Source: Lyngbya aestuarii BL J (GTDB taxonomy: Bacteria > Cyanobacteriota > Cyanobacteriia > Cyanobacteriales > Microcoleaceae). From it: a DNA stretch of 64,000 bases. Both the position numbers and the translations under genes were made by a program. Every line of letters starts with the position of its first letter. Position 1 is the first letter of the stretch. The stretch lies in assembly GCF_000478195.2 (NCBI RefSeq), contig NZ_AUZM01000004.1:1-64000 (forward strand), given 5' to 3'. A model generated the notes under the pieces. It was not told the origin of the DNA. It worked only from the letters and a program-made list of their open reading frames with translations, and did not search any database. This document shows positions 18,977-23,649 of this stretch, piece by piece.

Positions 18977-19254
18977 TAGTCTTGTTTAGTTTGGGTGTAC
19001 TGCAAGTTATTGCAAATTTTTTCAATCATAGGCTGAATTTTCCCTCGTAAGCAGTGGTCTATGATACGAGCAGAAAATACGAGCAGTTGAGGCTAAATTT
19101 GCTAGACTCTACCTATAGAAATGATTTATCACGCTTTGAGATTTTTTGCTCAAAATATAATAAAGTCTTAATAGAATATCTGAACTTTCAACTTTTTTTC
19201 AACCAATAAGTCGTCATTTATCCCCAGCCTTTAACTTTAATTTGTCCACGTTTC

Positions 19255-19371
19255 TCAAATAAATATTTTACGTTCTAATTCGGCGCTGGCTCTCGCTGCA
19301 AAAATCTTTAAAACAAGCTGTCGTGTTTCATCATCAATCATCGGTTGGCTATCTAATACCGCTGTTAACAT
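19255..19371 (-). pseudogene. GAF-domain remnant
   Basis: A 38-codon minus-strand frame (MLTAVLDSQPMIDDETRQLV...FAARASAELERK...) reproduces the last helix of a GAF domain. It closely resembles the [12 protein letters not shown] end of the first GAF in the hybrid kinase at 20554-23649. No other part of the domain survives, and the frame stops right after it. It lies just downstream of the GGDEF gene, so it is probably debris of a decayed sensor gene from the same cluster. Confidence 0.55.
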
Positions 19372-19445
19372 CGGGTTAAAATCAAATTATTAAAGCATTA
19401 AAAGTAGTTGTATTGAATGATATCACGACTAATTTTTAGCTTTGA

Positions 19446-19964
19446 CTAATAGCAGGAAGGCTTATAAACTTGATATCGATCTTTTCCTAAATATTTCGCT
19501 TGTAACAGAGCTTTATCAGCATCTCTAAGAATATCATTCGCAGTTTTATAGGGTGATAAATCGACGAGAATACCCAAACTAAATGAGATCACAAAATCTC
19601 TGTTTTGAATAAAAAATTTAGTCCTAAAATTTTCAAAAATACGTTCTGCAACTTTAAGCGGAACATGAGAATTTTCAATATTAGGGAGTAAAATCACAAA
19701 CTCATCATCTCCTAAACGGGCAATAAAATCATTTTGACGTATAGCCAATTTCAAGCGTTGACAAATTGAAATGAGTAATTGATCACCTACAGCATAACCA
19801 AAAGAATCATTAATATTTTTATAGCCATCACAATCAAGATAAAATAAAGCAAATTTAGCATTGGGATACATCTGCTGTTGCTTTAAGACTTCTTCGAGTC
19901 GCTTGATCAAAAAAGTTCGGTTGGGAAGTTCGGTGAGTGAATCATGTAATACCACTTTAAACAA
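19446..19964 (-). CDS. GGDEF domain protein, probably the detached end of a REC-GGDEF gene
   Basis: The 172-residue frame is a lone GGDEF domain. It starts at the HDSLTELPNRTFLIKRLEE motif that normally follows a PAS or coiled-coil linker, so it has no N-terminal sensor. The signature is GDDEF (second Gly replaced by Asp) and an RQND I-site is kept. The only available starts are TTG 19964 or GTG 19955, with no ribosome binding site. It lies 39 bases downstream of the REC gene in the same reading frame, separated from it by three in-frame TAA codons. It is best read as the 3' half of a broken response-regulator diguanylate cyclase. Expression as a separate protein is doubtful. Confidence 0.65.
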   Translation of the reverse strand: MFKVVLHDSLTELPNRTFLIKRLEEVLKQQQMYPNAKFALFYLDCDGYKNINDSFGYAVGDQLLISICQRLKLAIRQNDFIARLGDDEFVILLPNIENSHVPLKVAERIFENFRTKFFIQNRDFVISFSLGILVDLSPYKTANDILRDADKALLQAKYLGKDRYQVYKPSCY

Positions 19965-20003
19965 TTTGAAATGAGAAGGTTATAAAGTAGCTTAAATGTA
20001 GTT

Positions 20004-20525
20004 TTAAACCTGTTGTTCTATTTGCTGTTTGAGTTGAAGAATAGTTTTGTGAGCGGTAATAATTTTGATCTGATGTGTGATTCTAGCTAAGACTTCTTCC
20101 ACATAAAAAGGCTTGGTAATGTAATCTGCCCCCCCAACTTTAAAAGCCTTTGCTTTGTCTTCAATCTCATTTGTTGCACTCAAGAAAATAATCGGAATAT
20201 GAGCAGTTTTAGGATTAGATTTAAGTTGTTTGCAGATTTCATAACCACTCATCTTTGGCATTCTAATATCAAGTAAAATCAGAGTCGGTTCAATACTTTT
20301 AACGGCTCTCAATGCCATCACACCATTGGTTGCTTTTCGAGTTGGGTATCCATGATCTGCCAAAATACTGGACAACAGACGAATATTTTCGGGTACATCA
20401 TCCACAATCAAAATATCAACAGTTATTTCGACTAAAAGGTTGTCATCACCCATCTTAATCTCATTAGATACTTCTTTTGAAATTAATGGAAATAAATCTT
20501 GATTGAGTTGAGTTGAATATTGCAT
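20004..20525 (-). CDS. Single-domain response regulator (REC) with truncated coiled coil
   Basis: The 173-residue protein has one REC domain (about 34-155) with phospho-acceptor Asp in LLDIRMPKMSGYEIC and the switch lysine in YITKPFYVEEVLARI. It ends inside a coiled coil (TILQLKQQIEQQV) at TAA 20004-20006. In relatives this coiled coil continues into an output domain, and the GGDEF frame downstream is in the same phase. It starts 28 bases after the stop of the ethylene-receptor-like hybrid kinase, so it is likely its co-transcribed partner. Without an output domain it could act only as a phosphate sink or relay. Confidence 0.85.
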   Translation of the reverse strand: MQYSTQLNQDLFPLISKEVSNEIKMGDDNLLVEITVDILIVDDVPENIRLLSSILADHGYPTRKATNGVMALRAVKSIEPTLILLDIRMPKMSGYEICKQLKSNPKTAHIPIIFLSATNEIEDKAKAFKVGGADYITKPFYVEEVLARITHQIKIITAHKTILQLKQQIEQQV

Positions 20526-20553: not shown

Positions 20554-23500
20554 TTACGAATGAATTAATAACATAATTTCGTCAAATTGATAAGATTCCA
20601 CTAAAGCGGCTAACTCTTGAATCAATACCGAGTGTTCAGAGGGAATTTGCTTAATCAGATTTAAACAGATATCATCACTACCTTGAGCAGCAGCCTGGTA
20701 AAATTGATCAATCCATTCTGAGGACATAATCGCAAAATCTGTTCTTTTTAACGGGTGATCAGATTGATTTTGGGTAGACTCTGACGTAGACTCTATCTGA
20801 TCTTTTTCGGTCTGATTATAACAATATTCTGCCCCTAGATAAAGGCTTAATATTTCTAACAGTTCTTCTCGCTGAAAGGGCTTACTGATAAAGTCATCAC
20901 AACCCAAAGTTAAACATTGATCTCGCTGTTCAGAAAAGGTACTGGCGGTAATTGCAATAATGGGGATATGAGGACTATCTGGTGTGAATTCTTTCTCAAA
21001 TTCCCTGATTTTTTGAGTCGCTTCATAACCATTCATAATGGGCATTTGCATATCCATAAAAATCAAATTTGGATGCCACTCTTGCCAAATCTTAATCCCT
21101 TCTTGACCCTGTTCAGCGACTTTGACATCAAAACCAATTTCACTTAATAAAGTCAATAATAAAAGACGATTGACTGGATGATCTTCCACAATCAAAATCC
21201 GATAATTGGGTTGTCCCAGTGCTAAACCTGAGACCTGACTAATATCAGGAGATGGAACGGTTGGGGTGGTTTCAACGACAGAAATAGGAAGCACAAAGCT
21301 AAAACAACTCCCTTTTCCGACTTCACTCTCAATGGTGATTTTACCGCCCATCATCTGCACAAAATTCTGTGAAATTCGCAACCCTAAACCCGTACCCTCT
21401 TGGGATTCTCGGCCAATTTTTGTTTGTTTAAACGCCTTAAATAAATCCTGAATTTCTTCTGGGGAAATTCCTGGCCCTGTATCTTCGACCGCAAAAATCA
21501 GAGTATTAAGCTGTTCTGATTTATGATGCCTAACTCGCAGGGTAACATGACCTTTGTTTGTAAACTTAATTGCATTCCCTAGAAGATTAATCAAAACCTG
21601 ACGAAGTTTACTTTCATCGTTTTTAATAAATGGAGGAATCTGAGAATCAATTTCAAATTTAAGAGATAATTTTTTGGCTTGAGCTTTAAGTTTCAACATG
21701 GTTTCTAGGGAACAGAGCAACTGATAGAGATCAAACTCTGTTTCATTTAAGGTGGTGCGTCCGGCTTCGATTTTAGACAGTTCTAATACATCATTAATTA
21801 ACCCGAGTAAATGTTCACCACTTTTGTTGACAATCTTGATATATTGTTGGTGTTCAGCTTTTAAAGAAGCATCTCGCTGCATCAGTTGAGTGAAGCCCAA
21901 AATAGCATTGAGAGGAGTACGGAGTTCGTGACTCATATTGGCTAAAAACTCACTTTTGGCTTGATTCGCCGCATCCGCTGTTTCTTTTGCTTGTTTGAGT
22001 TCTTCGGCTTGGTGTTGAGTGTGAGCAAACAGTTCGGCTTGTTGTACTGCTACCCCCAGTTGATTACTAATTTGGGTAATAATCTTTACTTCTTTTTCTT
22101 GCCAAGCGCGGGGATTGCTATTTTGATAAACCCCTAACATTCCCCAAAGTTTATCACCACAAAATATCGGTGTAATTGTATAGGATCGGGCTTTTAATTG
22201 TTCTAAAAATCCTATATAACAAGCGTCAAATCCGGCTTGATAAATATCAGGAACCCAGCAATAATTGTTTTTTATACGATCAATTCCGCCTTGATTGTTT
22301 TGTAGATAGGTGTCTTGAATGAGTCCATCAGAACCTTGAAATTTAGCCGCTGCACAATTGTCTTGATTGACTGTAATTTGAGTCAGTTCAGGGGTATTTG
22401 CCTGGGTATGAAATAACCTCTTCCAACCCGGAGCAACCGACTCGGAAACGATATTTCCGCTCCAGTCAGAATTAAAACGATAAATCAATACCCGATCACA
22501 GGCAATTGCCTGACGTAGCTCTGCTGTCGTGACCTGAAAAATAGTTTCTAAATCTAGAGTTTGACGCATTTTAGAAATGATATGAGTGGTTGCCTTCTCT
22601 CGTTGTACCATTAATTGGATCGCTGCTTCTACTGCAATTCTTTCTCTAATTTCGGTTTCAAGAGTTGTATTCGCGGCCACCAGTTCTGCGGTTCGTTCCT
22701 CTACTCGAAATTCTAACTGTTCATAAGCACGACGTTTGTCTTCCTCTGCCCATTTGCGTTGCAATTCAGTCGCCGCACGTGCTGCAAAAACAGACATAAT
22801 GGCTCGGGTTCGTTTATCTGTCTTTAGGGGGTTGACATCAAGAATAGATAAGTTACCAATTACCTTTTGATCGTTATCAAACAAAGGAACACCCATGTAG
22901 CTGTCGGCGTTGAGTTGTTTGAGTAATGAATTATTGGGGAAAAACTGTTGCAAATCTTTCGGATAGTAACAAAGTTGTTGAGTTTTGATGACAATATTGC
23001 AAGGTGTCTCGTTGTTGTATTCAAAATTATTGCTTAGATGATCTCCAGACCAAAATGCAACGCTACGCAACCCCTGTCTCGGTTCATTAACTTTCTCACA
23101 GACAAACACATAGGGAACATTTAATGCGGTGGCGAGGTTCTCCACCAAAGCTGGAAAAAAATCTTCCCCAGTCACTGAAGCGGTTCCCGATAAGATACTT
23201 TGCAGAGTTTCATCAATTTGTTGTCGTTCGGCAATTTCCTGTTCTAACTGTATATTAAGGATTTCCAGTTGTTCAGGCGATCGCAAAGCGAGAAATTTCG
23301 GTAATAATTCCACTAATTGTAAAGCGGTGTATACAGAAACAAACGCCGTCAAAGCCCGTTCTAGCCCCGATATCCAATAATATGGATACCAAAGCGTCCA
23401 AATATCGAGTAAATGCCCGATACCGCAGAGAATGATAAAAGCACTGAATAAGACAAAAACGCTGGAAAAAGGCAGATCACTCCGTTTACGAACAAAGTAG

Positions 23501-23649
23501 ATCAGCATCGCGGGAATCGAAAAATAAGCAATGGCGATCAGCGCATCACTCACCAAATGCAGTCCCACAAGAGGAGTCTGCCAAAGGTAACAATGACCGT
23601 GTGGTATGTAAGAATGGGCAGATAGAAGATTTTCTAACCCCTGTAACAC
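20554..23649 (-). CDS. Ethylene-receptor-like hybrid histidine kinase with bilin-type GAF
   Basis: This 1031-residue membrane sensor opens with an ethylene-binding domain like plant ETR1 and Synechocystis SynEtr1/UirS (residues 20-120, three helices). [13 protein letters not shown] matches ETR1 [13 protein letters not shown] (Asp35), and [12 protein letters not shown] keeps the copper ligands Cys75 and His79. A GAF domain follows (about 150-295), then a phytochrome-like GAF (about 345-540) with Cys477 in [14 protein letters not shown], at the bilin-attachment position of cyanobacteriochromes but in a CY rather than CH dipeptide. HisKA (His574 in [10 protein letters not shown]), HATPase (GTGLGL near 754), REC (Asp866 in FMDMQMP) and a helical tail complete it. 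Combined ethylene and light sensing is inferred. REC and GGDEF genes follow. Confidence 0.9.

Follow-up and report, generated by a model that had tools for sequence, protein, structure and literature searches.

Behind an ethylene-receptor-like hybrid kinase in the window (the whole analysed stretch of 64,000 nucleotides), a receiver (REC) frame and a GGDEF frame follow each other on the minus strand, which raises the question of whether they represent one broken gene, two separate genes or a regulator that is changing its form. The earlier note had read them as one gene split by stop codons. The stops do split the frame; however, the REC half is conserved and stand-alone RECs are found at 12 of 40 orthologous kinase loci, and for these two reasons a simple breakage explains the locus less well than a conversion to a single-domain regulator. 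We consider it probable that this is a recurrent conversion of a regulator of c-di-GMP turnover into a single-domain receiver, caught half-way in the window, with the GGDEF piece as a probable relic. The features of the locus are as follows.

20554 to 23649, minus strand: intact hybrid sensor kinase of 1031 aa, ETR1_N-GAF-GAF-HisKA-HATPase-REC-HPT-like C-terminus by Pfam
20004 to 20525, minus strand: stand-alone REC ORF of 173 aa with a shortened coiled coil at its end, the part of the response regulator that was kept
19965 to 20006, minus strand: former coiled-coil linker, now a spacer of 14 codons (42 bases including the first stop) with three in-frame TAA
19446 to 19964, minus strand: open GGDEF frame of 172 aa with the letters GDDEF, an I-site-like RQND and TTG/GTG starts, a probable relic
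19264 to 19362, minus strand: fossil of 33 codons from the end of a GAF domain, in which 23-29 residues agree with those of nine REC-GAF-cyclase proteins
19191 to 19262, minus strand: fossil of the C-terminal tail of an adenylate/guanylate cyclase, interrupted by one in-frame TAA and lying in a frame that differs from that of the GAF fossil

Analysis of the open reading frames confirmed the coordinates and the shared frame that had been given for the two halves. The REC ORF (20525-20004) starts with ATG, directly preceded by a plausible ribosome-binding site, GAAGGAAAAC, as judged by eye. It is followed by in-frame TAA codons at 20006-20004, 19994-19992 and 19982-19980, and the GGDEF frame (19964-19446) continues in the same reading frame. 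Pfam identified Response_reg in the REC ORF (E 9.6e-29) and GGDEF in the GGDEF frame (E 3.8e-40). The claim that the GGDEF frame has only TTG or GTG starts and lacks a ribosome-binding site also held: the whole domain is preserved only from TTG (19964) or GTG (19955), an in-frame ATG appears first at 19871, already within the domain, and inspection by eye found no ribosome-binding-like sequence ahead of the TTG and GTG starts. Between 18900 and 20700, promoter-like sites (8 versus 7.5 in shuffles) and terminator-like sites (0 versus 0.8) were at shuffle level.

That the two frames derive from one ancestral gene was supported by 31 proteins with intact ORFs, which align with the window through REC, linker and GGDEF; the six that were scanned contain REC, GGDEF and EAL by Pfam. 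These orthologs were chosen for intact ORFs and are uninformative about how often such genes break. Intact REC-GGDEF-EAL genes of 602-617 aa directly follow the orthologous kinase at 5 of the 40 loci (L149, L151, L154, L155 and L184), with EAL confirmed in the two that were scanned, L149 and L184. These regulators occupy the same position behind the kinase as the window genes and are homologous to them in REC and GGDEF through the linker, whereas the window has stops in the linker, a GDDEF signature and no EAL. The ancestor was thus a single response-regulator gene beside an ETR1_N kinase, as the earlier note had proposed, but it carried a C-terminal EAL domain in addition to REC and GGDEF. 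Since the orthologous genes are REC-GGDEF-EAL, the window has lost a whole EAL (phosphodiesterase) domain of about 250 residues. The frame from REC through the linker is interrupted by the three TAA, and after GGDEF it stops. A tblastn search of 18977-20006 with two REC-GGDEF-EAL proteins gave no EAL match better than E 0.056, and that match (23% identity) lies within the GGDEF stretch.

A REC-GGDEF-EAL ancestor means that the former output may have been the breakdown of c-di-GMP as well as its synthesis. This widens the earlier suggestion that the c-di-GMP output had been lost or rerouted, of which loss at this locus is most probably the correct part. The genome contains 52 GGDEF matches, including the intact REC-GGDEF-EAL paralogs L097 and L098, and c-di-GMP signalling as such is therefore retained. 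As a separate observation, a REC frame with an in-frame TAA is located behind a REC-GGDEF-EAL gene at L007/L141 (G015:C1:2789580-2789981).

Orthologous loci were collected with the 540 N-terminal residues of the kinase as query; only matches that reached the end of the query were counted and shorter ones were dropped. The search recovered 33 orthologs besides the window in 388 genomes of the order and another 7 in 217 genomes of family f33, giving 40 loci. The contigs of L168 and L177 end before the next gene, and those of L165 and L170 end within the following region. Directly downstream of the kinase we found a REC-GGDEF-EAL gene (5 loci), a stand-alone REC (12), a REC-GAF-cyclase gene (4), a REC protein of 426-478 aa (13, with a kinase-domain match in 9), a REC protein of 284 aa (1), nothing related (3) or the contig end (2). 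The earlier note had counted the same two-gene layout in close relatives as evidence against its reading. REC and GGDEF as two adjoining ORFs were seen at 0 of the 40 loci, two of which end right after the kinase and none of which belongs to a genus-mate.

The window kinase (20554 to 23649) contains an H-box, two G-box motifs and the receiver Asp motif, as found by string search. Its presumed ethylene sensing rests on the ETR1_N match in Pfam and on what is generally known of SynEtr1. No obvious HPT histidine motif was visible by eye in the HPT-like C-terminus (20554-20850, minus strand). The nearest relatives of the kinase (22030-23649, minus strand) are in families f32, f33 and f8 with 62-68% identity, as compared to 57% in its own family, which may reflect gene transfer or loss in its own family. 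A DNA search of the 388 order genomes placed the best non-self matches to the stretch in family f33 and not in the family of the window. A first kinase tree, built from a small set, joined the window kinase to the g10 kinases (support 100), which have no such response regulator behind them; the grouping was not retained in a tree with 37 sequences.

The stand-alone RECs behind the kinase are found in family f33 at five loci (L150, L152, L153, L182 and L183; 158 or 239 aa) and in family f8 at seven (L156, L162, L165, L167, L169, L170 and L171; 138-142 aa). For the four of these 12 proteins that were analyzed with Pfam, REC was the only family above the cut-off. As in the window, they consist of REC only and sit right behind the kinase, and the 158-aa proteins of f33 end near the position of the window's stop. 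Both states occur within a single genus, g132, where L184 keeps REC-GGDEF-EAL and L150, L152, L182 and L183 have the 158-aa REC with its coiled coil ending near the same point. The gaps at nine of these loci, two of them shorter than 100 bases, gave no GGDEF or EAL match better than E 0.1. The next gene is of REC-HK type in f33 and, where enough sequence is available, a REC-GAF-cyclase gene in f8, whereas the window has only fossils of a REC-GAF-cyclase gene.

The window REC is intact. It is changed at 0 of 42 otherwise invariant columns, the worst of 22 other sequences, drawn from the 31 orthologs, being changed at 3 of 45, and at 0 of 32 when the nearest orthologs are added. Its terminal branch is 0.30. 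The dN/dS ratio against f33 was 0.07-0.13 in four of five pairs and the fifth was saturated, with dS near or beyond saturation in several of the REC and GGDEF pairs. With REC as its only domain, its own start and stop and a conserved sequence, it has the features of a single-domain response regulator. All eight computed pairs of stand-alone RECs had dN/dS of 0.17-0.28, as compared to 0.05-0.14 in three pairs of RECs from REC-GGDEF-EAL proteins. The trimmed stand-alone RECs compared are thus under purifying selection, although less strictly than the RECs of the full-length regulators.

These values bear on the reading that the whole regulator, REC included, is a recent pseudogene and that the kinase is turning into an orphan. 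We regard this reading, which overlaps with the conversion to a single-domain receiver, as quite unlikely. Both g10 genomes have no response-regulator gene after the orthologous kinase, and the second regulator downstream in the window has already been destroyed, as such a course would predict. However, the REC starts with ATG behind a plausible ribosome-binding site, all of its invariant sites are unchanged, its dN/dS against f33 is low in the four pairs given above, and stand-alone RECs are maintained at other loci. The likelihoods that we attach to the different readings overlap and do not sum to one.

The trees suggest that the conversion has occurred repeatedly. The window REC falls together with those RECs of f33 and f8 that sit behind orthologous kinases, but the trees give no branching order among the three. 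In the REC tree, where the f33 clade has a support of 97, L153 joins L149/L151 (91) and L150/L152 form a pair of their own (92), so that both lie among the f33 RECs of REC-GGDEF-EAL proteins. The kinase tree instead joins L153 to L154/L155 (100) and L150/L152 to L149/L151 (77). The two trees disagree on the placement of L153, but both separate it from L150/L152, and at least two independent truncations within f33 are therefore likely. With L184 added and fewer outgroups, support for the nesting in the REC tree was 62-79.

The GGDEF piece carries a different record, one of relaxation. The signature had been taken as GGDEF in the earlier note, but the actual letters are GDDEF; 30 of the 31 orthologs have GGDEF and one has SGDEF. 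Including this change, 8 of 38 otherwise invariant columns are altered in the window (worst of 22 others, 4 of 42), and 7 of 35 when the nearest orthologs are added. The terminal branch is 1.04; its excess over that of REC is modest, because GGDEF branches are longer than REC branches in the f33 clade too. The dN/dS of the piece against five f33 orthologs was 0.23-0.39, as compared to 0.10-0.22 in four pairs within f33, again with dS near or beyond saturation in several window pairs. The RxxD I-site lies five residues before the GGDEF signature. Judged by sequence, GDDEF departs from the signature of active diguanylate cyclases, GG(D/E)EF or a close variant, and the RQND of the window agrees with the I-site of degenerate GGDEF domains that act as c-di-GMP receptors. 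Only 1 of the 31 orthologs carries RxxD; chance is a fair explanation for RQND, since many orthologs have the D and a change of one residue suffices.

The frame itself has remained open, without a stop or a frameshift in 172 codons, and its GC content by codon position (0.47/0.27/0.23) has the periodicity of coding sequence. There are 88 one-step paths to a stop in the GGDEF frame and 7 in each of the three ortholog linkers computed. We simulated neutral change under one mutation model (kappa 3, 33% GC, no indels) from 11 of the 31 orthologs as starting sequences for GGDEF and 8 for the linker. Simulations that reached the divergence of the GGDEF piece accumulated 1.0-4.1 stops on average; the probability of zero stops was 0.00-0.07 for 9 of the 11 starting sequences, but rose to 0.33 and 0.42 when the simulation began from the two that are most divergent. 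Thus, either the decay is recent or the frame was under selection for some time.

A gene fission in which both halves have been kept, with the GGDEF ORF translated from TTG or GTG by re-initiation behind the REC stop and its active site altered, draws on the same data, and we find it unlikely. The stops are confined to the 14-codon spacer, with none in GGDEF despite its 88 paths, the codon periodicity is retained, the simulations are mostly unfavourable to a chance absence of stops, and the I-site is rare among the orthologs. On the other hand, the frame lacks both an ATG from which the whole domain would be made and a ribosome-binding-like site visible by eye, promoter-like sites are at shuffle level, GDDEF is accompanied by further changes at otherwise invariant sites, a separate GGDEF gene follows REC at none of the 40 loci, and EAL has already been lost together with the gene that came next. 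The more specific prediction that the products would be a REC switch and a catalytically dead GGDEF receptor for c-di-GMP, with its I-site and freed from EAL, is in our estimate very unlikely. If true, it would mean that the c-di-GMP enzyme of an ethylene-receptor-like pathway became a receiver and a c-di-GMP sensor.

The spacer is more eroded than the GGDEF piece. Its length, 14 codons, is close to the 13 of the shorter-linker orthologs, which include those of f33; some other orthologs have longer linkers. The linker of type (Q/K)ERTxQLExAN, conserved with variations in the 31 orthologs, is lost in the window, where 19965 to 20006 has 24% GC and no codon periodicity. Identity to the orthologs is 0.12, as compared to 0.45-0.65 among the ortholog linkers. 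Of six ortholog linkers compared, two clearly resemble the spacer, a likeness reached by 0 and 8 of 500 shuffles; with the other four, at 55-275 of 500, there is little or no likeness. In the simulations, d was 0.42-0.79 for the spacer versus 0.06-0.23 for GGDEF, showing the spacer to be more eroded, and the spacer acquired 0.7-1.1 stops on average, with a probability of 0.03-0.11 for three or more; the three observed thus exceed the expectation.

Programmed read-through or frameshifting could in principle yield a full REC-GGDEF protein, as the two halves share one frame and the spacer length is near normal. We rejected this reading as exceedingly improbable on account of the three TAA within 27 bases, a linker that is not conserved (identity 0.12 versus 0.45-0.65) and the missing EAL. 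A sequencing or assembly error that split an intact gene might be suspected in a draft genome of 437 contigs, but it was rejected with equal firmness: three separate stops without a change of frame, an eroded linker, the loss of EAL and decayed fossils downstream are more than one base error can produce.

Capture of the GGDEF piece from another GGDEF protein by recombination was set aside, because the piece follows REC in frame at a near-normal spacing and aligns with f33 REC-GGDEF-EAL proteins at 43-46%. The piece may nevertheless have such an origin: a GGDEF-only tree did not join the window with f33, and the PAS-GGDEF-EAL paralog G000:C40 of the same genome matches it at 47%, slightly above most hits in the family (best 48%). 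A scan of genome contigs with the GGDEF protein matched 16 loci, all for remotely related GGDEF proteins and one with a cyanobacterial title, and the corresponding scan of viral contigs gave no match.

Further downstream, the fossils of a GAF domain and of a cyclase tail show that the locus formerly had a second response regulator, now nearly all deleted. The genes of the nine REC-GAF-cyclase proteins that match the GAF fossil come either directly after an orthologous kinase or after its stand-alone REC; the protein at L156, the only one scanned with Pfam, is REC-PAS-GAF-cyclase. The GAF fossil shows no measurable decay and the cyclase tail shows some. The spacer looks far more eroded than expected from a recent split while the GAF fossil has no measurable decay, and the timeline is thus inconsistent. 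Either the GGDEF piece was kept for a while once the gene had been split, or the split is recent, the GGDEF piece had diverged earlier and a local event altered the spacer.

In the conversion to a single-domain receiver, the ancestral operon would have consisted of an ETR1-like hybrid kinase, a REC-GGDEF-EAL regulator and a REC-GAF-cyclase regulator. No relative among the 40 loci has the two regulators together behind the kinase, and we therefore infer rather than observe the three-gene operon. The first regulator would have lost EAL and had its linker cut by stops, and the second would have been almost wholly deleted, in an order that we reconstruct only tentatively. The kinase and the REC are still intact. 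The REC would then most likely act as a single-domain receiver that takes phosphate from the kinase, directly or via the kinase's own receiver, and that either passes it on or serves as a sink or a protein-protein switch, and c-di-GMP would no longer be changed. As to the GGDEF piece, it is most likely a relic that is either not translated or without function.

The evolution of response regulators is usually discussed as a swap or gain of output domains. Here, a single regulator at a fixed place behind its kinase has apparently lost GGDEF as well as EAL in several lineages of cyanobacteria, at least two in number, with the receiver under selection. The window represents an in-between stage, with relics of both the c-di-GMP and the cyclase outputs, and the two states within genus g132 provide a natural comparison for an ethylene-receptor-like kinase without second-messenger output. 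This is not a categorically new system; it is a variant of known truncation events, set apart by its recurrence at a single locus, where what stays behind is a single-domain regulator under selection. Passages of a review (PMC10333796) describe how c-di-GMP genes have been truncated or have exchanged domains, in E. coli and elsewhere. As in the window, a natural truncation at a domain border alters the output of a c-di-GMP turnover protein in YcgG and YciR of E. coli, but these retain a catalytic domain, whereas the window retains the receiver and has lost the catalytic domains (PMC10333796). PopA and PelD, like the window, have a degenerate GGDEF with an RxxD site; they are listed in the same passages as c-di-GMP receptors, whereas the GGDEF piece is at most a candidate (PMC10333796). 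In literature on ethylene receptors including SynEtr1, degenerate GGDEF domains, gene fission involving GGDEF and lone receivers, neither this locus nor its truncation appeared in the titles and opening abstract lines of the matches listed, and GDDEF occurred in two passages as an apparent misspelling of GGDEF.

Interrupted ETR1_N frames were also observed elsewhere. In the same genome, outside the window, another ETR1_N-encoding frame contains an in-frame TAG (G000:C33:38671-39066). In two relatives, the ETR1_N kinase genes L038 (G023:C1:85630-86676) and L040 (G013:C379:8164-9231) each have three in-frame stops in the matched stretch, and decay of ETR1_N kinases thus occurs elsewhere in the family.
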